Shown here: piece by piece, positions 1 to 20,043 of the stretch
Numbering within the stretch: the first letter of the stretch is position 1
Layout of the letters: every line of letters starts with the position of its first letter
DNA from: a virus
Length of the DNA stretch: 27,759 bases
Direction: 5' to 3' (one strand)
Virus record (IMG/VR): IMGVR_UViG_3300021962_000510
Location: 1 to 27,759 of that record
Program-made: the position numbers and the translations under genes
Notes under the pieces: model-generated
The model's database searches: none
Told to the model about the DNA's origin: nothing
The model's input: only the letters and a program-made list of their open reading frames with translations

Positions 1-60
1 TCTTCCATGCAAAATTGGAAAATCTAATAAAGGTTCATATTTGCTAATATCCTCTTCCAT
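1..60 (-). CDS. 5' end of an unidentified gene, cut by the window edge
   Basis: Only the first 20 codons are present, reading MEEDISKYEPLLDFPILHGR with no stop before the edge. The ATG (58-60) overlaps the TAA stop of the glycosyltransferase gene upstream as TAATG, the same coupling used at six other junctions here, so the start is credible although the product is not recognisable. Its position at the end of a run of glycosyltransferase genes makes another sugar-related gene possible, but nothing in 20 residues shows that. Confidence 0.6.
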   Translation of the reverse strand, partial: MEEDISKYEPLLDFPILHGR

Positions 61-1001
61 TATTTTAATTTATATAGGTCCATTACACTTTTAATTACCT
101 TAACGTGAGCATCAACTGTTGCATTTTCCTCATACCACTTTCTCCCATTAGCAGCTATAAACTGAACTTCTTCAGGATTATTTCTTAACTCTTCGAATCT
201 TTCAACATAGGCATCTGCCACTTCATTCCATCTACCTAAATCGCTACATTTTAATGCAGCATAATGGTAGTCTGGAATTAGTTCGTTGTGATATTTTATT
301 GTCAGTTTAGGTCTTACTAAACAACTTCGTAGTCCTAAAACATCAAAAGTCCTACAAGACACTTCAGCAGCACCATTTATATCGAGATTAATTGAGTATG
401 GAGCTATTTCGTTTATAAATTGTACAGGAAAAACTCTTCCATCATCAATAGTAAATCTTTCATCAAGTGCAAGAAACTCTCTTATTCCATACTTTCCTCC
501 TCTAAAAAATAGTTTAGTAGGAGTAATCTTTTCTTTATCGTATAAATCCTTAATTCTATTCTCTACATCTTGATGCAAAGACATATGAGATATTGGAGTA
601 TACTTTATGCCTGCATCTCTATAATCCTCTTCGTTTGCTTGAACTCCTAATGCTGCAAATAACTCAACACAATTTTCCATATCCCAAAAAGTACCTGGCG
701 TCATTCCTCTTAGTTTATCCCAATAAGAAATGTTAAAATACTTTTTATTGTCTGGATTCTCGATTATACAGTAGAAGTGTGAATATTTGCATGCAGGACC
801 GAAGTCTCTTTTTGGTGCTGGTCTTCCTTCTTCATCTAATTGATGGGAATTAATAGCTTCAAATTCAATATCAGGATGCATTTTCTTACACAACCTATAT
901 AATTTACAAGATGATATTAAATGTGTTACATTTGAATAGTAGAAAGGATCCTCAGCATCGGGATCTCCACATGGAAATTCAAAGTAAAACTTAAGCCTCA
1001 T
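60..1001 (-). CDS. Putative GT-B-like glycosyltransferase (CAP10/GT90 or CgeB-like C-terminal half)
   Basis: A 313-residue protein. I recognise no catalytic signature with certainty. The C-terminal third (about 200-310) resembles the nucleotide-sugar-binding half of GT90/CAP10 and CgeB-type enzymes: a stretch ending SINLDINGAAEVSCRTFD, then LRSCLVRP, an acidic/aromatic segment (ELIPDYHYAAL), and a closing helix pair with IAANGRKWYEENATVDAHV. That order (hydrophobic strand, small-residue turn, 'ngr.wy...t.' helix) is typical of those families. The N-terminal 190 residues are unassigned. It starts one base after the stop of a PF11397-type glycosyltransferase and is coupled by TAATG to the next gene, so it belongs to a sugar-transfer operon. 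A different sugar-processing enzyme is possible. Confidence 0.5.
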   Translation of the reverse strand: MRLKFYFEFPCGDPDAEDPFYYSNVTHLISSCKLYRLCKKMHPDIEFEAINSHQLDEEGRPAPKRDFGPACKYSHFYCIIENPDNKKYFNISYWDKLRGMTPGTFWDMENCVELFAALGVQANEEDYRDAGIKYTPISHMSLHQDVENRIKDLYDKEKITPTKLFFRGGKYGIREFLALDERFTIDDGRVFPVQFINEIAPYSINLDINGAAEVSCRTFDVLGLRSCLVRPKLTIKYHNELIPDYHYAALKCSDLGRWNEVADAYVERFEELRNNPEEVQFIAANGRKWYEENATVDAHVKVIKSVMDLYKLK

Positions 1002-1002
1002 T

Positions 1003-2271
1003 TTATAATTTATATTCTACTCTTTCACACCAACCTCTTTCTTCACTATAAGCCCAGAATACAACACGAGCTGGCTCTCTATCTACTAAGAAAAACTCTT
1101 CATAGTGAATATTTGCACCGTTTTGCATTAAGTTTGTTAATCTCCAATCACTAATATAGTTTTGGTTTATGCCGACTCCTTGCTCATCATCAAATGCAAC
1201 AAGTATGTGCTTGTAATCATTATGAGGAAAATCTTGTTTATGAACTGTTACTAAGTGGTAAAAGGACTTCATAAATGATTGCTCCCATAGCTCATCATCT
1301 TGAATATAAGGGTTTGGTGGATAGTTGTTATCTAATGTATACTTTTGTACTGCTCTTTGCTTAAAGTTGAAGCCTGCATACTTCTCATAATCTCTTAAAG
1401 TACGTACTGTACCTAAATCATAACCTGTCAAATCAACAGTAGGATCTTCTTCAGCTCGTAGCAATACTCTAATTTTCTTTCTAGCATAGTCTTGCTTTCT
1501 GTTAAAGTCTATTCCATTCTTAGAATCATCATCCCACTTTAACATTCCAGCTCTCTCTTCTCTCATAGTTGAATGCCAAATCACTAACTTATGTGGGTGG
1601 AACATATCATATCCGTGAGTATAAGATCTAACTGTTAAGTTTAACTCTTCACCACTAAAGTAAATGTCTGGATCATGTCTGACTTCTTTAGCCCATTCAG
1701 CTCTAGCAAAGCAAAAATGACCTGATAGGAACCTACTCATTGGAGGTTCAGTCATATCTAACCATCCATGAAGCAATCCTGGTCTAATAAAGATAGTTCC
1801 ATGCGGATAGAATGAAGCAAATTGTTGTTGCCAAGGCTCAGGAGTTCTTCCTTCAGGCTCTTTAAATGGATCATACAAAGGTAAATAAGCAGCTAGGATA
1901 GGTTTAAAACCTTTTGCTTCTAATCCACCATGCATTTCTAAGAGAGTTTCATCCCAATCTTGAGCAAATCTATGATGTGAATCAAGTTGTAAAATATAAT
2001 CTTGATTAGTTAATAGCACATCGTTAATTTGGGCTCTTGCCCAAGGTAAGCCTTGTGCTTCTAAATAAGGAACATCCATAATATGAAAGCGTTTATCATC
2101 TCTAAACTCATCCAAATTATCGAATCCATCCTCTTCTTTAAACTGTCTACAAATACCAAAGTGTATTCTCTTTGGATATTTTGCCATAGCTAAAGCATCC
2201 TTAATAGTTGGTACTAATTCTGGATCTCTGTAGGCTGGTAGATGTACAAATATTGTTGGTTTTTTACTCAT
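1003..2271 (-). CDS. GlcNAc-transferase-like glycosyltransferase (PF11397/GT60 type), copy 2
   Basis: A 422-residue enzyme with a GT-A fold pattern. Visible family landmarks are the N-terminal strand and AYRDPEL (about 13-19), the metal/nucleotide-sugar DxD-like motif LQLDSHHRF (about 94-102), FLSGHFCF (about 181-188), the FSGEE motif (about 205-209) and the YTHGYDMFHPH loop (about 217-227). These match the polypeptide GlcNAc-transferase family whose characterised eukaryotic members transfer GlcNAc to hydroxyproline or Thr. About 150 C-terminal residues follow the catalytic domain and end in GWCERVEYKL, a tail shared with the paralogue upstream. The ATG overlaps the end of that paralogue by 8 bases (ATGAGTAA), which implies translational coupling. 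Family assignment is firm; donor, acceptor and activity are not known. Confidence 0.85.
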   Translation of the reverse strand: MSKKPTIFVHLPAYRDPELVPTIKDALAMAKYPKRIHFGICRQFKEEDGFDNLDEFRDDKRFHIMDVPYLEAQGLPWARAQINDVLLTNQDYILQLDSHHRFAQDWDETLLEMHGGLEAKGFKPILAAYLPLYDPFKEPEGRTPEPWQQQFASFYPHGTIFIRPGLLHGWLDMTEPPMSRFLSGHFCFARAEWAKEVRHDPDIYFSGEELNLTVRSYTHGYDMFHPHKLVIWHSTMREERAGMLKWDDDSKNGIDFNRKQDYARKKIRVLLRAEEDPTVDLTGYDLGTVRTLRDYEKYAGFNFKQRAVQKYTLDNNYPPNPYIQDDELWEQSFMKSFYHLVTVHKQDFPHNDYKHILVAFDDEQGVGINQNYISDWRLTNLMQNGANIHYEEFFLVDREPARVVFWAYSEERGWCERVEYKL

Positions 2272-3523
2272 AACCTATGGGGTTTTCTATTCTTTCACAC
2301 CATCCTTTTGACTTGCTGTGAGGCCAAACTCTCCATGAGTGGGGTCTTTCAGAGCTTTCAAATTCTCTCCAGATGTGAATAAATTTATCGTTTTGATCTA
2401 CTTCAAAAAAGCCTTTTATTTCAAGTTCATTGGCATCTAACCTAAAGGCATCGTTACCATCTTTATCTAATAATGCTACTGCAAAGCTATCGTAGTCAGT
2501 CTCTAATAAAGCTCCTTTATAGATGTCAATACAAACTTTATGCTTAGTTGCTAAACCACTCTCATAATCGCCTTTAACTGGTGGTAAAGCGTAGTTTATA
2601 GTCTCTTGGTGTATTTGTCTAGTCTTAAATTTTAAGCCAGCATACCTTTCATATTCCTCTAAAGTTCTTTCATATCCCAATCCAAATAATCCTAAAGCAT
2701 TTCTTTGGCATGGGCTACAAGGAACATCATCCATATCAAAGATTTTTCTAAATCTATTATATGAAATTTTATCTCTATCTGCCCAATCTTGACTATCATC
2801 CCAATGCTTTGTCTTTCCTTCTCTTGTATATTCATGCCAAATAAGCGGTTTGTGAGGAGCAAATAAGTCATATCCATTAGTATAAGCTCTTCCAGCTAAT
2901 GAACTTTCTTCTCCATGAAAGTATAAATGAGGATCGTAAGGTACTTCCTTAACAAATTGACCTACAGTAAAGATAAAATGTCCTGATAAAAAGCGTGTTG
3001 GAAAAGGCTCTTTTAAAGCTTCCCACTTCTCAACGTGGTAGGGACGTAAGAAAGGAACTCCAGCTGGCATGAATCTATCTATATTTAAACCCCATACTTC
3101 AATGTTTCTTCCATCTGGATCATTTTTAGGAAAATAGCCAGGTAAATAAGCTGATAAAATAGGCTTTTTGTGGCCTTTTACTCTTAAATAATTAATGTAA
3201 TCTTTTAAAATAATATCCCAGTTCTTACTAAATCTATGATGAGAATCTAATTGAAGATAGAAGTCTTCGTTTGTATAAAACTGTTGAATTAAACTTCTTG
3301 CATGACAAACTCCCTTAGCTTCTTGGTAAGGGATGTCGATAATTCTAAAACGAGGATCATTTAAGTATTGATCTAACTTATCCCATTCATCTTCTTCAGC
3401 GTGTTGCCAAGCAATACATACAGTTAAATCGTCAGGATTAACTGCGTTTGATAAAAGGCTCTCTAAAGTAGATAATAGTTCTGGATCTCTGTAAGATGCA
3501 ATCGAAACAAAAATTTTAGCCAT
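2264..3523 (-). CDS. GlcNAc-transferase-like glycosyltransferase (PF11397/GT60 type), copy 1
   Basis: Paralogue of the next gene downstream. It carries the full family signature: IFVSIASYRDPEL at the N-terminus (about 4-16), EAKGVCHAR (about 68-76), the DxD-like LQLDSHHRF (about 90-98), RFLSGHFIF, KEVPYDP, FHGEES and YTNGYDLFAPHKPLIWHE. I start it at the ATG at 3523 (419 residues), which puts the first beta strand next to Met; a TTG 15 bases further upstream (3538) would add five residues and is less likely. After the catalytic domain is a C-terminal extension ending GWCERIENPIGYE, like its neighbour. The leader contains GTATAATATAG but no Shine-Dalgarno sequence. Expected to use a UDP-sugar in the host cytoplasm. 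The acceptor is unknown; the adjacent Thr/Pro-rich fibre proteins are candidates. Confidence 0.85.
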   Translation of the reverse strand: MAKIFVSIASYRDPELLSTLESLLSNAVNPDDLTVCIAWQHAEEDEWDKLDQYLNDPRFRIIDIPYQEAKGVCHARSLIQQFYTNEDFYLQLDSHHRFSKNWDIILKDYINYLRVKGHKKPILSAYLPGYFPKNDPDGRNIEVWGLNIDRFMPAGVPFLRPYHVEKWEALKEPFPTRFLSGHFIFTVGQFVKEVPYDPHLYFHGEESSLAGRAYTNGYDLFAPHKPLIWHEYTREGKTKHWDDSQDWADRDKISYNRFRKIFDMDDVPCSPCQRNALGLFGLGYERTLEEYERYAGLKFKTRQIHQETINYALPPVKGDYESGLATKHKVCIDIYKGALLETDYDSFAVALLDKDGNDAFRLDANELEIKGFFEVDQNDKFIHIWREFESSERPHSWRVWPHSKSKGWCERIENPIGYE

Positions 3524-3560
3524 AACTATATTATACAAATTTTATCTTAATATTCCAAAT

Positions 3561-3740
3561 TTATTCTGCAGATACAAAAATACCGTTTACTTTGTTAATA
3601 TACGGCGTAGCAGCTGCTTCTACAGCTATACAAGCTTCTTCAAAAGAATTAGCAGGAACTAAAAAAAGCATCTGTTTTGTTACAGTACCGCCATCTGGAT
3701 TTGCTATATTATAGTTTGCGGTTATTTTATACTGATTCAT
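3561..3740 (-). CDS. Small uncharacterised protein (59 residues)
   Basis: Starts at the ATG at 3740, after the fibre gene's stop at 3760; a longer version from 3878 would overlap the fibre gene by over 100 bases in another frame and is rejected. The sequence MNQYKITANYNIANPDGG, followed by a hydrophobic/aromatic strand (TKQMLFLVPA) and an alanine-rich helix (EEACIAVEAAATPYI), suggests a compact alpha/beta fold. There is no signal peptide or membrane segment. The leader is A-rich with TTTAAA directly before the ATG and no Shine-Dalgarno sequence. It lies between the fibre gene and the glycosyltransferases, so a fibre-assembly or fibre-modification role is conceivable but unproven. Confidence 0.65.
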   Translation of the reverse strand: MNQYKITANYNIANPDGGTVTKQMLFLVPANSFEEACIAVEAAATPYINKVNGIFVSAE

Positions 3741-3759
3741 TTTAAAAAGGTTTTTACTG

Positions 3760-6700
3760 TTATACTGAACAAGATATAGCACAACTAGTAAATGGTCCAT
3801 CTGTGCTATACAATAATGGTACAGCTCCGCCTGGGTCAGTTGTTGAAGATAGTATCTTAAATGAATCTGTTCCTCCAAGTGACCAGAAATACCATCTGTT
3901 TAAAGTTACTGAAGATCCTGCTGGGAATGCTACAACTACTGTACCTTGATTGCTACAAGTAGCACAATCATAATCAATTGCATCATAAAAATCATATCCT
4001 GCTGCAGGTGTTGCAGTAGGTGAAGGAGTAGGAGAATTAGAAGGTATTGTAGAACAATCTACATAATCCGTAACAACACCACTTGTATTAATTTGTGCAG
4101 CGTATGCGCTTGCGCCTTTTAATAATTTAAACCAGTTTCCATTACCATTAAATTGAGTACCTGAAGCTAAAGTCGAGCTATTATAGAATACAGTAGTTGG
4201 TATTGGTATATTTGTACCAGGTGCTGTGTAGATAGTAAAGGTCGGAGCACCACCTCTACAAGCATCTGTAGAGTTACCATATCCTCCCAAAGCTCCAAAT
4301 GCAGAAGCTGCTTGAGAGTTACTTGGAGTAACGCTTGGTGTTTGAGTAGGTGTTGGTGTTAAAGAAGGTACTGAAGAACAGCTAATTACTCCTGTTATCA
4401 CACCACTTACTCCTATTGATACAGCCCATTTAGTGCTAGCACCAGATTGGAATAAGAACCATCCTGAAGTTGATGGCGGAGTATATGTTGTTGTTAAGTT
4501 AGCATCTGTGTACAATTGAGCACCTACTGTTGGATCTGATCCAAATGCAGGTGGTTGATAAACAACTCCAGTAACAGTTCCACTACAAGCTAAGTTAGTA
4601 CTTCCATAGGTAGTTGTTGATCTACCAAACTGTACAGCTGGTGTTGTTGGAGTTGGAGTAACGCTTGGTGTTCTAGTAGGTGTTGGTGTTGGAGTACGAG
4701 TAGGTGTTTGTGATGGAAGAGTTGAGCATGTATAAACTGTTTGAAGTACACCACTTGCGTTTGGAAGTACTGCATATAAAGTACCATCATAAGAGAATAA
4801 ATACCATCCACTACCACCAGGAGTCCAAGTAGTTGTTAATCCTGGATTAGTGTACATTTGAGCACTTACTGCAGGACTGTTACCTCCACCAGCTCCGGGT
4901 GTTTGGTAAATAAGATCTACTCCTACAGTTCCAAGACAAGCAAAATACTCGTTAGCATAATCGCTTGAAGATCTAGAGAATATTGTAGCTGGTGTAGTAA
5001 CTGTTGGTGTTGGGGTCATCGTAGCACTTGGAGTGTTAGATGGAATTGCTGTACAAGCGGTTACAGTTTGAACTACACCACTTGTGTTAACTTCAACTGC
5101 CCAATAAACGCTACTTCTTCCTAACTTAAACCACCTATTACCAGGAATTGATGGAGCCCATGCAGTTGTACATGAGGCGTTTGTATATAATTGAGCCGTT
5201 GCTAATGGAGTACCTCCATCGGCTGGCTTTTGATATAATTGTTGGCCTGTTAATGTATCACTTTGGCGACAAGCATTGGTTGGATCTGTGTATGCTGTAG
5301 GAGCAGATCCTGCACCACCTGCAGTAAATGTTCCAAATTGGAATCCTACTGCACTGTTAGAAGGCGTTACTGATGGTGTTCTACTCACACTTGCAGTGGT
5401 AGAAATAGTAGGTGTTACGCTTAATGTAGCAGTTGTACTAATTGTCGGAGTAGGACTTATAGAAGCAGTCGTACTAATTGTTGGTGTAATAGAAGGTGTA
5501 GGTGTTACAGTAGCACTTGGTGTATTAGAAGGAATAGTAGAACAATCTGTTACAGCTGCAATAATACCACTTACGTTTACTTGAACAGCCCAATAAGTAC
5601 CACTTCTTCCTAACTTAAACCATCTTGCAGATCCTATTGCTGGAGCCCATGCAGTTGTACATGAAACGTTTGTATATAATTGTGCAGCGACTGTAGGTAT
5701 TGTACCATCAGTTGGCTTTTGATATAATTGTTGGCCTGTTAATGTATCACTTTGTCTACATGCTGTTGTACTATCACCGTAATCAGTTGGAGCTGATCCA
5801 GGTGCTCCTGCAGTGTAAGTTCCAAATTGCACTCCTACAGTACTTGTTGAAGGAGTTACGCTAGGAGTTCTAGATACACTAGCTGTTGTGCTAATAGTAG
5901 GTGTTACACTTAATGTAGCAGTTGTACTAATTGTTGGAGTAGGACTTATTGTAGCGGTTGTACTAATGCTAGGAGTTTGTGTTACTGTAGCACTTGGTGT
6001 ATTAGAAGGAATAGTAGAACAATCTGTCACAGTTTGAACAACACCTCCTATACTTACTAATACAGCCCAGTAAGTAGAACTTCTTCCTAACTTAAACCAC
6101 CTACTACCTCCAATTGCTGGAGCCCATGTTGATGTACAAGAATTATTTATATAAAGTTGTGCTCCTACTAATGGAATACCTCCGTCAGCTGGAAGTTGAT
6201 ATAATTGTTGGCCTGTTAGCGTATCACTTTGTCTACATGCTGTAGTTGAATCACCATAGTCTGTAGGAGCAGATCCTGGTGCTCCGGTAGTAAAGGTTCC
6301 AAACTGGAATCCTACTGCACTATTTGAAGGTGTTACAGATGGTGTTCTACTTATACTAGCTGTTGTAGATATCGTAGGTGTAATAGAAGGTGTAGGTGTT
6401 ATAGAAGCACTTGGCGTAGTTGATACAATAGTAGAACAATCTATAACTGTTTGGATTATACCACCTATGCTAACTTCAACTCCCCAATAAGTAGAGTTTC
6501 TTCCAAGCTTAAACCAAGAATTACTGCCAATGCTTGGATTCCATGCAGTAGTACAAGAAACATCTGTATATAATTGAGCACCTACCAATGGAGTACCTCC
6601 GTCAGCTGGAAGCTGGTAAAGATTTTGACCCGTTAAAGTATTGCTTTGTTGACAAGCTAATGTGCTACTAGCAAAATTAGTAGGAGCTGATCCTGGTGCT

Positions 6701-7140
6701 CCTGCGGTATAGGTTCCGAACTGGAATCCTACTGCACTATTTGAAGGTGTTACAGATGGTGTTCTAGAAATACTTGCCGTAGTACTAATAGTAGGTGTTA
6801 TTGAAGGAGAAGCTGTAATGGATGGGCTTGGTGTAGTAGAAGGTATCGTAGAACAATCTGTTACAGTTTGAATTACGCCACCTATGCTAACTTCAATAGC
6901 CCAATAAGTAGAACTTCTTCCTACTTTAAACCATCTGTTGCCTGCAATAGCTGGATTCCAAGCTGCTGTACAAGCGACGTCTGTGTATAATTGTGCAGTC
7001 GGGTTTGGTGTAGATCCATCTGCAGGCTTTTGGTATAATACTTGACCTGTTAAGGTATCGCTTTGGCGACAAGCTGTAGTTGAATCTAAATAAGGTGTTG
7101 GTGCTGCTCCAAAAGCTCCAGTAGTAAACGTACCAAATTG
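3760..7140 (-). repeat. Eight tandem protein modules of about 90-100 residues with mucin-like linkers
   Basis: Eight related modules alternate with Thr/Ser/Pro linkers. Modules 1-5 (7140 down to about 5038) are very alike, with three Cys each (ACRQ or ACQQ; a Cys after the AQLYT strand; DCST or ACTA). Whole DNA segments recur, for example TTGATATAATTGTTGGCCTG near 5230, 5719 and 6196. Modules 6-8 (about 4981-4037) are shorter and diverged, with only the first and last Cys kept. Linkers vary from about 10 to over 50 residues. Confidence 0.85.
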
Positions 7141-7300
7141 TACACCTACAGCACTTGTTGAAGGTGTTACACTAGGACTAGCACTAATAGTAGGACTAGC
7201 TGTAGTTGATATTGTTGGTGTTATACTTAAGGTAGCAGTTGTACTAACTGTAGGTGTTACTGAAGCAGTAATACTGATAGTAGGTGTTACACTAGGTGTT
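3760..7300 (-). CDS. Modular Thr/Ser/Pro-rich tail-fibre-like protein, C-terminal portion after a frameshift
   Basis: This frame is open from about 7370 to the TAA at 3760. It has no ATG, GTG or TTG until a TTG at 6588 (giving 942 residues from there), yet 6589-7300 already encodes one whole repeat module and part of the next, so it must be the continuation of the gene starting at 7930. It holds eight modules: roughly 6844-7140, 6421-6723, 6004-6306, 5527-5832, 5038-5342, 4710-4981, 4362-4635 and 4037-4305. Typical features are ACRQSDTLTGQ, AQLYT, WFKLGRSSTYWAV and DCSTIPS. Mucin-like linkers (TPTISTTAS-type) separate them, and a distinct C-terminal domain of about 80 residues with several Cys ends the protein. 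The T4-like position after the wedge genes suggests an adhesin or short fibre. I do not recognise the module family. Confidence 0.7.
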
Positions 7301-7522
7301 CTAAATACTTGCTGTAGTACTAATAGTAGGTGAAATGGAAGGACTTGCAGTTGTACTAATAGTAGGTGTTACTGAAGCAGTAATACTAATAGTTGGAGTT
7401 ACACTAGGTGTAGCTGATATACTAGCAGTTGTACTAATAGTAGGTGTTACACTAGGTGTTCTAGAAATACTTGCTGTAGTACTAATAGTAGGTGAAATGG
7501 AAGGACTTGCAGTTGTACTAAT
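7281..7522 (-). repeat. Direct duplication of about 82 bp within linker DNA (7281-7360 and 7441-7522)
   Basis: The two copies begin TAGGTGTTACACTAGGTGTT on the plus strand and run to GCAGTTGTACTAAT. They are identical except that the copy at 7281-7360 lacks two bases at about 7303-7304 (TCTAAATAC against TCTAGAAATAC). The offset is 160 bases, which would be 162 (54 codons) with the missing bases restored, so the repeat is in frame by design. The 2-base loss creates the TAG that ends the 209-residue frame. Confidence 0.85.
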
Positions 7523-7930
7523 TGTTGGAGTTACAGAAGGTGTAGGTGTTACTGAAGCAGTAATACTAATAGTAGGTGTAACGCTAGTAGTAACGGTTAC
7601 AGTAGGTGTTGGAGTTGCTGTTGGAGTAACACTTGGAGTTTGTGTTGCAGAAGGAGTCAATGAAGGAGAAACTCCTGGCGCTAATGCATAATTGTAAGTG
7701 TCTTTACAAGGTCCTACAGGTGAATTTACAACAATTTGGTCTACGTTATCAGGTGTAACAATAGTAACACCAGCTATCAATTGACCAGCTGACAAAGGTG
7801 AAACCGAAGCTCCATAGTTATCCACAGCAGGTATAAGTGTAGAACTACCTCCTATTGTATAAAACAAATTGAAGTAGTTTTCGGTGCTTAATCCGACACT
7901 TGAACACTGTATAAGTAACGTTTTTGCCAT
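7301..7930 (-). CDS. N-terminal portion of the modular Thr/Ser/Pro-rich fibre-like protein, ending at a frameshift stop
   Basis: A 209-residue frame with an ATG at 7930. It has a unique N-terminal domain of about 90 residues (MAKTLLIQCSSVGLSTENYF onwards), then about 120 residues of linker of the type SVTPTPTVT, TISTTAS and SISPTIST. It ends at TAG (7301-7303) in the middle of a linker repeat. A near-identical copy of the same DNA 160 bases upstream (7441-7522) has two extra bases (TCTAGAAATA against TCTAAATA on the plus strand) and reads through as SISRTPSVTP. Restoring two bases, or a +1 shift here, joins it to the downstream frame, giving a protein of about 1389-1390 residues. The truncated form may be real, an assembly error or a variable state. 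The leader contains AATATTTATA. Confidence 0.75.
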   Translation of the reverse strand: MAKTLLIQCSSVGLSTENYFNLFYTIGGSSTLIPAVDNYGASVSPLSAGQLIAGVTIVTPDNVDQIVVNSPVGPCKDTYNYALAPGVSPSLTPSATQTPSVTPTATPTPTVTVTTSVTPTISITASVTPTPSVTPTISTTASPSISPTISTTASISRTPSVTPTISTTASISATPSVTPTISITASVTPTISTTASPSISPTISTTASI

Positions 7931-7938
7931 TTAGTCTA

Positions 7939-7950
7939 ATATAAATATTT
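7939..7950 (-). promoter_or_regulatory. AATATTTATA leader element before the modular fibre gene
   Basis: In the 46-base gap between two fibre genes, the coding strand reads AATATTTATA about nine bases before the ATG at 7930. The same ten bases recur before the genes starting at 11249 and 20501. Its reverse complement contains TATAAATA, the T4 late-promoter box, but on the strand opposite the genes, so a late-promoter reading is uncertain; an AT-rich initiation element is the alternative. Confidence 0.35.
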
Positions 7951-7976
7951 TATTTCATTTTATTGTTAAATTCTTT

Positions 7977-9485
7977 CTATGTTGGACAAGCCGGTGGTGT
8001 ACTTGATACTCCTGATGTTAGGTAAACTTGAGTTTGGAATGAGGTAGGAGATGCAAGATATGACACACTTCCTAAAACCTCATCTATATCTCCACTATAG
8101 AACAATTCTCCACCATTGTAAATGTCACACACTCTATATCTAATAATATTACCAGAACCTGCTGACCAAGAACCCGTTACAGAGAATGGTACCAAAGAAG
8201 GATCTATATAAAGTGTTCCACTTTTGAGTGAAGGTGTTGTTATTTCATCTAAAATAATTGTTCCAGCTAAATTTCGTATTATTAATTCACCTGCACCTGC
8301 TCCTTTTGGTCCTGTTACCCAATTAACTTGTATCAACGTAGTAGCTGCCGAAACAGACATACTAGGTGTTACTGAAATACTTGGGCTAGCTGTTGTACTT
8401 ATAGATGGTGTAGGTGTTAGAGAAGGAGTTTTTGATACTGAAGCACTTGGTGTTGAACTAGCACCTATTGTAGCAGTAGTACTTGGTGTTATACTTACCG
8501 TAGGCGTGACAGTAGCACTTGGTGTTGAAGTTACAGTTGGTGTTGGAGTTTGTGTTGGAGTAGGTGTTGGACTTGGTGAAGGAGCAATCTCTGTTACAGT
8601 TAGTCCTTTTATGGTACAATCTACTATTTGTACATTAATAACTTGTTCATCCGAAGTAGCACAGTAAGTTGACTTTAAAGTATAGAGGCTTTTATAAGTT
8701 CCAATTTTATTTGTTAATGGATCAGATTCACTCAAAGTTACAGCTCCAGCATTACTAATACTATTGCTTGGAAATAAGTAATAAGGATATTCCTGTAAAG
8801 CTAAACTAGAAGAAACTATAGGAGCACAATCAGGAATAGCTCCTGCTATCGGAGTAAATGTTTTTGGACTAGTTGTAATGTCAAATACATACGACTTAGG
8901 GAAAGTGGTTGGACCACCATCCATAGCACAATAGTAGTTTGGATTTGTAATTATAATAAATCCTTGTGCATAGATAATATTACCAACATGTAAATTACTA
9001 TTAAGGGTGTCTATAATATTACCATTACCATCATCTACTAATTGATAGCTAGTACCATCATCCGATGCCAAGAAGAAACTCTTTTTAGATACTTGTTCTC
9101 CAAAAGCACTTCTTGGAATATTAATAATTTTAATCTTAGAAGCAGAAGCGGTGGGAAAGGAACGAATATCAGCTGATGCTGATGCTACAGTATTGCCTTC
9201 AAAAGTTCCGGATGCTGCAGTAGATTGGAGGAAATTGTCTGCAGACGAGCCAGACACTTGATAAGATCCTGTGAGGAAATTTGAGTAATATAAATGCCTA
9301 ATAGACCAATAGCGCAGAGTTGCCTCTGGTATTGATCCAGTTATCGTAACAGGGCCATTGATCCCAGTTTGTGCATAAATGCCTGAATCGCATATAGTAG
9401 TATCACTATAAGAAGCAGAGTATTTAAGTTTAATGGGAGTAGCTGTTACATCTGTTGCTTTTAGGCTATTTGATGATCTACTCAT
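7977..9485 (-). CDS. Tail-fibre-like structural protein with a Thr/Ser/Pro-rich linker
   Basis: 502 residues in three parts. Residues 1 to about 300 are a beta-rich domain with many Ser/Thr/Gly/Tyr residues and scattered Cys, starting MSRSSNSLKATDVTATPIKL. About 305-385 is a mucin-like linker (SPSPTPTPTQTPTPTVTSTP and similar). About 385-502 is a second compact domain beginning TLIQVNWVTGPKGAGAGELI and ending SSTPPACPT. The linker vocabulary (TPTPS, SISTTAS, SVTP) matches the next gene downstream, pointing to a shared origin or shared modification. No signal peptide or membrane helix is visible, as expected for a virion protein. It sits after the wedge genes, where T4 carries genes 9-12, so a baseplate-periphery or fibre component is the likeliest role. 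Confidence 0.7.
   Translation of the reverse strand: MSRSSNSLKATDVTATPIKLKYSASYSDTTICDSGIYAQTGINGPVTITGSIPEATLRYWSIRHLYYSNFLTGSYQVSGSSADNFLQSTAASGTFEGNTVASASADIRSFPTASASKIKIINIPRSAFGEQVSKKSFFLASDDGTSYQLVDDGNGNIIDTLNSNLHVGNIIYAQGFIIITNPNYYCAMDGGPTTFPKSYVFDITTSPKTFTPIAGAIPDCAPIVSSSLALQEYPYYLFPSNSISNAGAVTLSESDPLTNKIGTYKSLYTLKSTYCATSDEQVINVQIVDCTIKGLTVTEIAPSPSPTPTPTQTPTPTVTSTPSATVTPTVSITPSTTATIGASSTPSASVSKTPSLTPTPSISTTASPSISVTPSMSVSAATTLIQVNWVTGPKGAGAGELIIRNLAGTIILDEITTPSLKSGTLYIDPSLVPFSVTGSWSAGSGNIIRYRVCDIYNGGELFYSGDIDEVLGSVSYLASPTSFQTQVYLTSGVSSTPPACPT
8340..8590 (-). repeat. Thr/Ser/Pro-rich linker coding region in the 502-residue fibre-like gene
   Basis: Low-complexity codons for SPTPTPTQTPTPTV, TPSATVTPTVSIT and SISTTASPSISVTP-type runs, using the same vocabulary as the linkers of the next gene. 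The antisense strand is therefore open and encodes an artificial Val/Gly/Leu-rich string, which is not a gene. Confidence 0.8.
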
Positions 9486-9496
9486 TTCTTACTTTA

Positions 9497-10579
9497 TTAC
9501 CAATCTAATTTAACTCTTACAAGCGCTTCCTTAGTAAAGTCCTTCACCAAAGGTCTGGACATCTTAGCTACAGCTAATAACTGACTGTTGTCGTTATACA
9601 AACCTACTGTTGTTATGTAAGTTTGTGGATTGTAAACCATTGTAGAATATAATAACTGACCTGATCCAGAAACGAATGTTGGGTTAGAAGAGTAGTTATA
9701 TTCTTGGCTTGCTACTCTACAGAAGATGTAATTCGAAGATACATTTTCTTGTGAGTTTAACTGGAAGTTTCCTGCTCCAGAAATAGCTGCAAATAAATTA
9801 TTATTGTTTATTGATGAAGTATATAAGGATGCTGTTACAGGATTTATACTGTAGTTTAATCTATCTAAGGACAAACTAACACCACCCGATACTGCACTCA
9901 ATGCTAAAGCACTTGCGTTCAATAAGATTACTCCGATATCTGGTAAATACATTCCATAAGAACCTGATACTGTATATCCATTACCAGTTTGACCTACGTT
10001 TGTAGTTGTAGTTGCTTTACCATTTGAACCTGATACTAGGTCAAATACTCTACCACAATCTAAGTAGTTAACAACAGAAACGTCGTTACTATTATCGCAG
10101 ATTGTAATTTTAGAAGTACCAGAACCAGAAATAGTTAAGTTAAATGTTCCTGGAAATAAGCTTTCCTTATATCTGTTTCTATCAATGTTAATTGCAAGAA
10201 TATCTATGGCATTTGTAGCAGCTCCACCAAAGTTAAATCCTTGAGTTGAAGATGATACAGCAGGTCCGTATATTAAAGTGTTGTACTGATTGTAAGTTGT
10301 TAAAGAAGGAGTTACTCCTGGTACCAAGGCATTATATGGCAATGAACCAGATCCTTTTTGGTGACCATAAGCAATAGCGAATTGGATAGATGCGCTAGTT
10401 GAACCTACAGGTGCTTGATATACATTCAAGTAAAAAGCATTTTGTGTAATACTAGTTGACTGCGCTGGAGTTGATGTATAAAAACTAGTCAACGTAGGGA
10501 CATTGGAACTCCAAGCTGGAGCCGTTACTGAATCCGTACTAATGACAAAATCTGAAGGACTTAATCTAGTAAATGACAT
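9497..10579 (-). CDS. Phage tail/baseplate structural protein, conserved in marine T4-like phages
   Basis: 360 residues, soluble and rich in Ser/Thr/Asn/Gly. From memory it resembles a structural protein common in T4-like marine phages, most clearly at the C-terminus: YLPDIGVILLNASAL (about 210-225), GNFQLNSQENVSSNYIFCR (about 270-288) and the closing block with QTYITTVGLYNDNSQLLA and RPLVKDFTKEALVRVKLDW. Starts with MSFTRLSPSDF. It is one base downstream of the 222-residue gene and ten bases upstream of the next, so it is in the same transcription unit. A precise T4 equivalent (gp8 to gp11 position) cannot be assigned from sequence alone. Confidence 0.75.
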   Translation of the reverse strand: MSFTRLSPSDFVISTDSVTAPAWSSNVPTLTSFYTSTPAQSTSITQNAFYLNVYQAPVGSTSASIQFAIAYGHQKGSGSLPYNALVPGVTPSLTTYNQYNTLIYGPAVSSSTQGFNFGGAATNAIDILAINIDRNRYKESLFPGTFNLTISGSGTSKITICDNSNDVSVVNYLDCGRVFDLVSGSNGKATTTTNVGQTGNGYTVSGSYGMYLPDIGVILLNASALALSAVSGGVSLSLDRLNYSINPVTASLYTSSINNNNLFAAISGAGNFQLNSQENVSSNYIFCRVASQEYNYSSNPTFVSGSGQLLYSTMVYNPQTYITTVGLYNDNSQLLAVAKMSRPLVKDFTKEALVRVKLDW

Positions 10580-10580
10580 A

Positions 10581-11249
10581 TTATGATTGGTTTACTTTTA
10601 TTACTTGAACTGGGATTTGAATTCTAGCACCAGAATCACGACCTATAATTACTAATGTAGTATATAAAGTTGTGTTTGAGCCAAATAGTGTGTTAACAGT
10701 GGTAGCTGTTAAGTTGATTGAAGTACCGATTACTGTCTTAGAAACGTTAGTTCCAACTGTAATTGTGCCGGTTGCATTCAATGCTGTAGCGTCAGGAGTA
10801 TTGATACCAACACCATTAAACGCTGACATTGTTCTAACATCTCCAATTGTAGCCACATATCCAGATTGCTCAAACGTAGAAGTAGCTCCTAAATAGTTGA
10901 GAGTCTGTGGAGTTATAGATAATGAAGCACCTTGCTTGATAGTAATGTTGCTGTAGCCTACATCTACTACTGGTAACTTAGCTGTTCCTCTTGGAAGAGT
11001 AATCAACTTGTACTTCATAATTTCGTTAGAATTAGGAAAAGCTTGGATGATAGGCATATTTTCAATAGCCTCACCGTAAAATGCAGATCCAGATGGTTGG
11101 TTTGGATTGTATAAAGTATAATCCACTTCGTCATCTGAAAGTGAAAACTGCGTAATTCTAAAAGAACCGTCGTTTTGAGCCAAAAGCTGTCTACCTGTAT
11201 CGGTTAGAATCGCGTCTACAACAACGGATGTGTTACTTAAATATCCCAT
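10581..11249 (-). CDS. Tail structural protein, conserved in T4-like phages
   Basis: 222 residues. The N-terminal half (MGYLSNTSVVVDAILTDTGR, then QNDGSFRITQFSLSDDEVDY, NPNQPSGSAFYGEAIENMP) matches a block I recall from many uncultured and cyanophage-like myovirus tail clusters. The C-terminal half is a Thr/Val-rich beta domain ending VQVIKVNQS. No catalytic motif, membrane segment or signal is visible. Its leader, the 34-base gap after the 1596-residue gene, carries AATATTTATA directly followed by AAGGAG. That is the best Shine-Dalgarno-like sequence in the window, although it lies about 15 bases from the ATG. It is probably a baseplate or fibre-attachment component. Confidence 0.7.
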   Translation of the reverse strand: MGYLSNTSVVVDAILTDTGRQLLAQNDGSFRITQFSLSDDEVDYTLYNPNQPSGSAFYGEAIENMPIIQAFPNSNEIMKYKLITLPRGTAKLPVVDVGYSNITIKQGASLSITPQTLNYLGATSTFEQSGYVATIGDVRTMSAFNGVGINTPDATALNATGTITVGTNVSKTVIGTSINLTATTVNTLFGSNTTLYTTLVIIGRDSGARIQIPVQVIKVNQS

Positions 11250-17771: not shown

Positions 17772-19640
17772 TTACATTGTTACTACGCGTCCTTGAATGT
17801 CTGTGTCTGGGTACTTAACTTCGAAGATACTTGGATCTAAAGAAGGATAAATAACACCATTCAGAGTTGCTCCTGCTATGTCATAACTGTATTCTGAGTA
17901 ACCTGTAGATGTACCAGATAAATTTACAATTGCCACTTTGTTTACTGTTTGTACACCTGCTACTTGATCTAATAAAGTGTAGATTGTTGATAATATAATT
18001 GGTTGGTTGATTTGCCAATTTTCTCTATTAAAGAAAGTCTTAAGTAAATCTAAACATAATCCAATAGTCTCTCTTGCAGAGTAGTTTGGAAGAATTATAA
18101 TATCAAAAGCTACCTTAATGTTTATAATGTAGGCAGGCTTTAATCTAATAGTGTCAGTTAACATTCTATACTCTCTTAAGTATGTTTGAATGTTTCTATA
18201 TAAAGCAGCTCCTGGTACTTCAAATTGTCCTGAAGTGTTATATCCAAGTAAGTAAATAGAAGTTGCTAGAGGATCTCTCTCAGCAGGCTCGTTTACCAAG
18301 TATTGAGCAAAAGTTGCTTCGTCTTTAGTTACATAAGCTTTGGCTACTTGACCAAACTTAGCAGGCATACCTAGCACAATTCCTAAATAATCCTGCTGTG
18401 TTACAGCTCTTAGTTGAGATGGGAATTGGTTAAGTGTATTTAATTTTAATTGATCAGGAGTATCGCCATCACCTCCACCTACTGCTCTTACTGCATTATT
18501 AACTGCTAATGAAGCTAATGCTGCTGTTTGTAAGCTAGTGTTGGAAGGACTATTATCAAAAGTAGAAGTGCTAGTTACAATGTTTGTTAATTGATTAACT
18601 TGAACATTTGATGCTGCACCACCACCAACTAAATAAGTTACTGTTAGAGTTTCATTTTGAGGTGCTAAGCCATAACTATCATTTGTTACAAAGTTGGTTG
18701 GATCAAAAGCAGTATTCAATAGACTAATACCATTCACAGTTCCAATACCTACATTACTAGGGTTAGGAAGGTAACCTGAAGCAGATACTGCAGATACACC
18801 AGCTCCAAACTCTAATTCAAGAGTAGAATCTTCTTTAAACCTAGAAACAAATCTTCTTGGTACAAGTTCCTTTTCTAAGATATAAGGAACTTCATTTGCT
18901 TGTTGATATAAGCTAGGATAAGCTAGAGCTGTATTCTGTACAGGCTTTAAAATATAGTTTTGAGCTAAGTAAGGTACTTCATACCATTTATTACCATTAC
19001 CATCAGTAACACTTATAATTTCAATGATATCTGTATCTTGGATAGTTCTAATTGGAAATCTTTCAGCTGCTCCAAAAGTTAATCTCGTTGTCTTAACTTG
19101 ACCTGATATTGCTTGAGTTGTTTTCTTTAACAAGTATGTGCTTGGATTACCACCTACTGTCGTATAAACTGAAATATCAGTTGGATTGATAGAAGAAGAT
19201 AGGTTAAAGTTTACTTTGTTAGGAACGTAGAAAAACATTGTAGTATCTACATTTGATCTAACTTGCATTCCTTCTTCAACAGTCAAAGCATAATTAAAGT
19301 CAGGTAAGTAAGCTGCTCCAGAAGCAGGTAATTGTTGGTAAACATCTAAGTTTACAATAGCTGCAGAAGTAACCTTTGGTCTGTAGCCTAACATGTAGGC
19401 TAGGTTATATAAATTGGAAGGTTGCTTTGCGTACTCTAAGAAAGTTTCTTGAGTTTGATTATCTAAATAAAACGACAATACATCACCAACATAGGCAGCC
19501 ATGTCAATGAACATAGTACCAGGAGACGATGTAGAAAAGTCGTTATAGGAAGTCGGATAGTACGCTTTCGCATACTCAATCAACGCTTCTTTAAAGGTTG
19601 CAAAGTCTTTATTTAGATATCTTATGTCTTTGTTAGCCAT
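17772..19640 (-). CDS. 6: Baseplate wedge protein, T4 gp6-like (baseplate J family)
   Basis: 622 residues, close to T4 gp6 (660). The N-terminus is diagnostic: MANKDIRYLNKDFATFKEAL, then SPGTMFIDMAAYVGDVLSFY and NQTQETFLEYA, followed by LYNLAYMLGYRP, the typical gp6/J-like opening. The mid and C-terminal parts include the J-type core (LRAVTQQDYLGIVLGMPAKF, about 415-435) and a block containing IIILPNYSARETIGLCLDL. In T4, gp6 dimers join neighbouring wedges into the inner baseplate ring and rearrange on sheath contraction. The ATG overlaps the end of the gp25 gene by 8 bases, the order seen in T4 and its relatives. Confidence is high. Confidence 0.93.
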   Translation of the reverse strand: MANKDIRYLNKDFATFKEALIEYAKAYYPTSYNDFSTSSPGTMFIDMAAYVGDVLSFYLDNQTQETFLEYAKQPSNLYNLAYMLGYRPKVTSAAIVNLDVYQQLPASGAAYLPDFNYALTVEEGMQVRSNVDTTMFFYVPNKVNFNLSSSINPTDISVYTTVGGNPSTYLLKKTTQAISGQVKTTRLTFGAAERFPIRTIQDTDIIEIISVTDGNGNKWYEVPYLAQNYILKPVQNTALAYPSLYQQANEVPYILEKELVPRRFVSRFKEDSTLELEFGAGVSAVSASGYLPNPSNVGIGTVNGISLLNTAFDPTNFVTNDSYGLAPQNETLTVTYLVGGGAASNVQVNQLTNIVTSTSTFDNSPSNTSLQTAALASLAVNNAVRAVGGGDGDTPDQLKLNTLNQFPSQLRAVTQQDYLGIVLGMPAKFGQVAKAYVTKDEATFAQYLVNEPAERDPLATSIYLLGYNTSGQFEVPGAALYRNIQTYLREYRMLTDTIRLKPAYIINIKVAFDIIILPNYSARETIGLCLDLLKTFFNRENWQINQPIILSTIYTLLDQVAGVQTVNKVAIVNLSGTSTGYSEYSYDIAGATLNGVIYPSLDPSIFEVKYPDTDIQGRVVTM

Positions 19641-20043
19641 CTATACTTAATGTTATATTGTCAGATTCTCTTGTGTTCTTTATTGTGTAAGATAAGTTTA
19701 CTGTTAAAATGTTATCGTTTGGATTACCTCCAAAAATTAACTGTGTTATAACAACGTTAGGAAAGTATCTTTCTACACCAGATCTAATTAAAAGATCTAA
19801 ATCGTCAGCAGTACTATCTGTAATTTGCTCAAATAATTTGCTTCTAATGCCAGCTCCGAAGATAGGATTGAAGATTCTCTCTCTTGGATCAGTTAACAAG
19901 AAATTAATCAAGTTGTATTTTATTTGGTCCTTAGTAGTATAAACGGTTTGGAAGACAGCAGGGTTATTGAATGGAAGCGAAACTCCAATCCCTGTTGATT
20001 TTCTTAAATCCAGCACATTTATATTTCTAATGTTGTATGCCAT
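19633..20043 (-). CDS. 25: Baseplate wedge protein, T4 gp25-like (GPW/gp25 family)
   Basis: 136 residues against 132 for T4 gp25. The family block is plain: KYNLINFLLTDPRERIFNP followed by FGAGIRSKLFEQ (about 43-72), then an acidic helix and VERYFPNVVITQL. gp25 forms part of the wedge core bundle with gp6 and gp53 and is thought to help start sheath assembly. A related fold occurs in type VI secretion (TssE) and other contractile injection systems. Despite old 'lysozyme-like' labels, no glycosidase motif is visible. The start is TAATG-coupled to the 152-residue gene. A GGAG lies 8 bases before the ATG, within the upstream coding sequence, so it may be a chance Shine-Dalgarno. Confidence 0.93.
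   Translation of the reverse strand: MAYNIRNINVLDLRKSTGIGVSLPFNNPAVFQTVYTTKDQIKYNLINFLLTDPRERIFNPIFGAGIRSKLFEQITDSTADDLDLLIRSGVERYFPNVVITQLIFGGNPNDNILTVNLSYTIKNTRESDNITLSIDG

Follow-up and report, generated by a model that had tools for sequence, protein, structure and literature searches.

Phage GT60 glycosyltransferases beside Thr/Ser/Pro-rich fibre genes: a candidate fibre O-glycosylation cassette

A viral gene cassette in which fibre-type genes dense in threonine, serine and proline (STP) stand ahead of glycosyltransferase genes raises the question of whether the virus sugar-coats its own fibres with its own enzymes. The cassette lies in the IMG/VR record IMGVR_UViG_3300021962_000510, the whole of which (27,759 bp, hereafter the window) was analysed, and the contig end falls inside what in relatives is a longer cassette.

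The fibre slot and its STP-rich genes

The window belongs to a phage with T4-like baseplate genes, with matches to baseplate wedge families across 17772-20043. Its closest cultured backbone relative is the Flavobacterium phage immuto (70.6% identity to 10581-11249 and 44.5% to the wedge protein), a Microcystis phage being a more distant one, and its host is probably a Flavobacterium-like bacterium. In immuto, the counterpart position includes genes annotated as tail fibre and tail spike, and 9485-3760 is on that account assigned as the fibre/spike slot; none of the immuto genes there contains STP stretches. The arrangement proposed in an initial annotation of this DNA, STP-rich genes in this slot followed by PF11397 enzymes in the same orientation, was confirmed with the corrections described below (Table 1).

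Table 1. Features of the cassette and the evidence for each, in window coordinates
Feature	Position	Strand	Basis
GT-B-like protein of family c5, perhaps an extension transferase	60..1001	-	PF13524 E 0.058, below cut-off (weak)
GT60/PF11397 transferase b (37% identity to a), a possible follow-on enzyme	1003..2271	-	PF11397
GT60/PF11397 transferase a, predicted as a likely polypeptide O-glycosyltransferase	2264..3523	-	PF11397, DSH motif, fold
Small ORF between fibre and enzymes, 59 aa	3561..3740	-	ORF; L012 has a 71-aa ORF in this position
Second STP-rich fibre gene, 3' part, other frame	3760..7287	-	STP linkers alternate with ~100-aa Cys-containing modules
Frameshift site	7305..7320	-	two nucleotides fewer than in the tandem copy at 7477
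Second STP-rich fibre gene, 5' part, 209 aa: N-terminal domain and STP linker	7301..7930	-	ORF
First STP-rich structural gene, 502 aa, tail fibre/spike slot	7977..9485	-	maximum STP 78% per 40-aa window; slot counterpart in immuto

The combined Ser, Thr and Pro content of 40-aa windows reaches 72-78% in the three STP ORFs; for six further large ORFs in the window, the corresponding figures are 35-57%. In the second STP gene, linkers add up to 430 aa (54% S+T, 17% P and no Asp) and form the long Ser/Thr/Pro-rich tandem repeats that characterize mucin-type acceptors. The ~100-aa module interspersed among them occurs in five close copies at 5044-7143 plus diverged copies and is modelled by AF2 with a pLDDT of 96.5; a comparison of its fold with the PDB gave no match, while its sequence matches were to phage proteins only, Cellulophaga phage phi17:1 among them. 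The module was found in 20 proteins, 18 of them in GT60 loci, the set having been assembled in a way that favours GT60 loci. The N-terminal domain encoded by 7301-7930 is similar to the one in L005, a related locus with a single STP gene.

The initial annotation counted two fibre-type genes; both are indeed STP-rich, but the second is not a single ORF here, as a 2-nt frameshift divides it. The ORF having a start codon within its 3' part spans 3760-6588, and the frame remains open upstream to about 7287. At 7315 the repeat reads ATTTCTAGAAC versus ATTTAGAAC in the near-identical tandem copy at 7477. Programmed frameshifting near 7305 is not favoured, because the counterpart gene of relatives is one intact ORF of 1290-1524 aa and the site is a plain two-nucleotide loss relative to the tandem copy, and the break fits a local deletion or an assembly error in tandem repeats. 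The two-base loss within 7301-7320 could also reflect a population mixture or real on/off variation.

The spacing of the cassette was previously described as consisting of tiny gaps, which holds for the enzyme genes (an 8-bp overlap between a and b, then 1 bp to 60-1001) but not for the 236 bp between the fibre gene and the first enzyme. This interval holds the small ORF, one of which is present at the same position in some relatives, and its coding strand contains no T4-like late promoter (TATAAATA). The product of 60-1001, initially called a GT-B-like transferase, may be one: its profile match is sub-threshold, and its family recurs in the GT60 cassettes of relatives. Those cassettes continue with several further sugar-related genes that vary between phages, including a carbamoyltransferase, an FkbM methyltransferase, GT2-type enzymes, HtrL_YibB with GT2, a PLOD-GT-like protein, and an NAD epimerase or GDP-mannose dehydratase; their far boundary is a conserved structural gene related to 9497-10579. 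The cassettes that we read contained neither a flippase nor a membrane transferase. The carbamoyltransferase recurs with GT60 (L006:3898-5559, PF16861/PF02543; family c8 in L010, L018, L019, L020, L024 and L027; ORF333 of Xanthomonas phage XacN1), which suggests carbamoylated sugars.

Family, motif and predicted fold of the enzymes

Both enzymes match the PF11397 profile far above its curated cut-off of 21 bits (249.9 bits, E 7e-74 for 2264-3523; 174.6 bits, E 5e-51 for 1003-2271), in agreement with the original assignment of two PF11397/GT60-type glycosyltransferases, and both match phrog_24687, 'glycosyltransferase' (E 1e-140 and E 1e-106, respectively). The metal motif of transferase a is D93-S94-H95 and its C-terminal His is H230, and D93, H95 and H230 are invariant across 15 phage GT60 sequences. 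The DxH motif is a feature of the GT60 family, which a survey of GT-A enzymes groups with GT27 by this motif and by O-glycosylation of Ser/Thr in polypeptides (PMC7185993). Consistent with this grouping, the AF2 model of the GT60 enzyme (pLDDT 89) adopts a GT-A fold related to GT27, and its best PDB structure matches are all ppGalNAc-Ts, human and parasite (E 8e-11), with a TM of about 0.5 that is moderate and indicates a common fold, not the same enzyme. Lower-ranked matches in the same fold group include wall-teichoic-acid and polysaccharide transferases, TarS/TarP among them. The phage linkers resemble the Ser/Thr/Pro tandem-repeat acceptors of GT27 enzymes, whose system of priming and then extension enzymes resembles the order proposed here for the phage; the phage setting differs from that of GT27, and the GT60 profile matched no sequence in the PDB. 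The tandem pair of a and b may comprise a priming and a follow-on enzyme.

GT60 activity is defined as a retaining reaction in which UDP-GlcNAc donates GlcNAc to Thr or hydroxyproline in a polypeptide. Characterized GT60 members include the T. cruzi pp-alpha-GlcNAcT (PMC6939170), which adds GlcNAc to Thr of mucins (PMC3769586), and Gnt1 of Toxoplasma and Dictyostelium, which has a hydroxyproline acceptor, as on Skp1 (PMC6939170). The phage enzymes share with these polypeptide alpha-GlcNAc transferases PF11397, DxH, the C-terminal His and the GT-A fold; unlike them, they are soluble, often occur as tandem pairs and carry an extra C-terminal region of ~110 aa, in a setting with no Golgi and no prolyl hydroxylase found on the phage side. 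The Gnt1 precedent, to which the initial annotation alluded, also bears on a possible hydroxyproline acceptor, whereby linker prolines would be hydroxylated and GT60 would then add GlcNAc to the hydroxyproline. Among 26 related phage records, however, the prolyl-hydroxylase-like PF13640 occurs in two, neither of which has STP motif hits, and we rejected this route as highly improbable because prolyl hydroxylases are lacking in these phage records, the sequences that the search covered.

The cassette enzymes lack membrane segments, in keeping with modification in the cytoplasm ahead of assembly. Among the papers that our literature search could reach, none linked PF11397 or GT60 with phages. 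Bacterial PF11397 relatives (L382-L461) are spread over many phyla and groups, among them Bacteroidetes, Acidobacteria, Burkholderia/Paraburkholderia, Yersinia and Serratia; STP genes lie nearby in 22 of 78 bacterial GT60 loci, mostly not adjacent in the same direction.

Co-occurrence of GT60 with STP-rich fibres in related phages

If the enzymes act on the linkers, the two should be found together, and the initial annotation named co-occurrence across relatives as one check on its proposal. We analysed 80 loci found only by the neighbouring structural gene 10581-11249, blind to both enzymes and STP, counting slots that were closed or that revealed GT60, with the window excluded and duplicates removed. 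Nine slots had a long STP stretch and GT60, one had long STP without GT60, none had GT60 without long STP, and 36 had neither. Co-occurrence was thus strong and repeated, with GT60 present in 9/10 long-STP fibre slots versus 0/36 slots without long STP (Fisher 9e-9, a p value that ignores kinship). The result is clear at STP thresholds of 0.50-0.60 and holds for 8/9 at 0.65, where L187 falls to 44 aa and L161 and a few others exceed it. L187 is also the minimal unit, in which about 17 bp separate the gene for a 402-aa (TP)n protein from a single GT60 gene. The sole long-STP exception, L161, has a Fringe-like transferase and a protein of family c20 in place of GT60; the segment L161:4393-8069, in which the long STP gene is followed by the c20 protein and the Fringe/GT31-like transferase, is a possible alternative decoration set.

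Family c20, another transferase of the slot, provides an internal comparison, as it occurs with long STP in 1/9 cases versus 9/9 for GT60 (p 4e-4). The other 8/9 accompany fibres without long STP, indicating that GT60, and not any such neighbour, tracks STP. On the backbone tree, STP and GT60 each change 5-6 times, and the independent pairs comprise four that change the same way, none opposite and one tie; with only five phylogenetically independent contrasts, a sign test cannot reach 0.05.

Such a pattern might also arise from ordinary mobility of the fibre slot, with the enzymes acting on a glycan of the host surface so as to mask receptors or exclude superinfection, the STP linkers serving as mere flexible spacers and the genes travelling together as host-range genes. 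Several observations are in keeping with this: c20, c116 and FkbM-like transferases or methyltransferases follow non-STP fibres in the same slot, bacteria of many phyla encode GT60 relatives, and TarS/TarP belong to the GT60 fold group. GT60 itself, however, accompanies none of the 36 non-STP fibres of the slot whereas c20 does occur there, and neither the soluble enzymes nor the cassettes, with no flippase or membrane transferase in those read, point to the cell surface. We consider this reading unlikely. Less probable again is glycosylation of other virion proteins (capsid, tail tube or folded modules), with the STP correlation stemming from another cause such as a shared host group. Mycobacteriophage virion proteins do carry sugars attributed to phage genes (Freeman et al. 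2023, cited in PMC12619734), yet the acceptors reported there are the C-termini of capsid and tail tube proteins, not STP-rich fibre linkers, and close backbone relatives differ jointly in STP and GT60 on the same tail backbone.

Two further designs bear on the pairing. At loci found by enzyme similarity, which are biased towards relatives of the window, the gene directly before GT60 is STP-rich in 26/56 non-redundant cases versus 14/681 other genes of the same loci (p 1.5e-22, again ignoring kinship), and the STP-GT60 adjacency shows at least six changes on the GT60 tree. Starting from the acceptor, we collected 120 stretches by a Thr-Pro-[Ser/Thr]-[Ile/Val] DNA motif and 73 by the reversed motif; GT60 was present in 9/120 and 0/73, respectively, mostly just downstream of the STP motif and on the same strand.

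Of the 24 large records surveyed, 18 have PF11397, and every one of these shows seven or more STP motif hits, including some records in which the hits are not adjacent to the enzyme gene; in the three that lack PF11397 and were selected on grounds other than STP, motif counts are at background. The records of L038, L070 and L089 have STP motifs and no PF11397. L223 has STP genes at the contig edge and no enzyme in the stretch; in its whole record, a single PF11397 gene occupies 170.5-171.4 kb on the strand of the STP genes and, if the record is assumed to be circular, follows shortly after the final STP motifs. Roughly one phage GT60 gene in two has no STP gene immediately next to it, and some lie beside QueE/FolE-like or baseplate genes. 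A second GT60 clade (clade B, L021-L032) appeared in a first tally to be without STP proteins, which was overturned by one near-complete clade-B record (G024) with STP genes elsewhere, including in the same fibre slot. Its GT60 lies tens of kb away from them, so adjacency is not required. In L022-L025 and L031 of this clade, a GT60 pair stands beside QueE-like, FolE-like and other nucleotide-metabolism genes, with the STP genes far off.

A T4-like role in which the enzymes glycosylate phage DNA bases has some basis in the proximity of one clade-B cassette to QueE/FolE-like genes and in the frequency of this role among phage transferases (PMC12619734). Nevertheless, the cassette occupies the tail-fibre slot, and in a Pfam search the enzymes match no T4-type glucosyltransferase family (BGT/AGT). 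Furthermore, PF00303 (the thymidylate synthase/hydroxymethylase family) is absent from 4/8 GT60 records and interrupted by stops in three of the other four. We regard DNA as a very unlikely acceptor.

A proposed model for fibre glycosylation by the phage

Since the enzymes track the fibres across related viruses, the virus most likely sugar-coats its own fibres. We read the cassette as a phage-encoded virion O-glycosylation system for its own STP-rich fibres, with a probability of roughly 0.6. The fibre proteins would consist of folded modules joined by long Thr/Ser/Pro linkers, to whose Thr/Ser hydroxyls one or both soluble GT60 enzymes would transfer a first sugar from a nucleotide sugar, in the host cytoplasm and before virion assembly. 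This sugar is GlcNAc in characterized GT60 enzymes, and the donor of the phage enzymes may differ. Chain extension and capping could then fall to the GT-B-like protein and to the variable downstream genes of relatives, namely GT2-type enzymes, HtrL/YibB plus GT2, carbamoyltransferase, FkbM methyltransferase and sugar epimerase/dehydratase. Fibres made in this way would be sugar-coated, extended, stiff and resistant to proteases, and their capping would differ between phages.

When 50,697 phage records were searched at the protein level, relatives of 2264-3523 turned up only in XacN1 and two Stenotrophomonas phages. XacN1, a cultured Xanthomonas phage, offers the only experimental evidence bearing on virion glycosylation, and it amounts to a hint: its report describes at least two virion glycoproteins and proposes the phage transferases ORF328 and ORF334 as their possible makers (PMC5852040, which names PXD008065 for the deposited virion data). 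ORF334 is the XacN1 GT60, a PF11397 homologue (38% identical), and we found about 14 STP-rich ORFs in that genome, with STP ORFs at 124-133, 235-238 and 249-262 kb. Unlike the genes of the window, ORF334 is not beside STP genes, and the accessible text does not assign the virion glycoproteins to particular proteins. Together with the co-occurrence and the ppGalNAc-T-like fold, the XacN1 glycoproteins lend weight to the self-decoration of fibres put forward in the initial annotation, which stands apart from its hydroxyproline and mimicry elements. Immune evasion by surface mimicry is unsupported, the nearest cultured relative infecting Baltic Sea Flavobacterium with no animal context.

The enzyme-acceptor pairing is real and recurrent and, as judged from sequence, is most likely explained by O-glycosylation of fibre linkers. 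A broader claim is more tentative: GT60 and an STP-rich fibre may form a widespread, repeatedly assembled two-part phage module for true mucin-type (Thr/Ser-dense) fibre O-glycosylation, a counterpart of mucins in which exchangeable extension and capping genes vary the fibre glycan. Long Thr/Ser/Pro linkers are common in environmental phage fibres and easily taken for inert spacers. Should they be glycosylated by GT60 cassettes, mucin-like fibres built by the phages' own enzymes would be a feature of many phages, which would matter for host range and for how stiff and protease-resistant the fibres are. The analysis also proposes a concrete function for phrog_24687, now filed only under its general enzyme class, and the cassettes would provide a simple bacterial system for making mucin-type glycopeptides, with two genes in the minimal case of L187.
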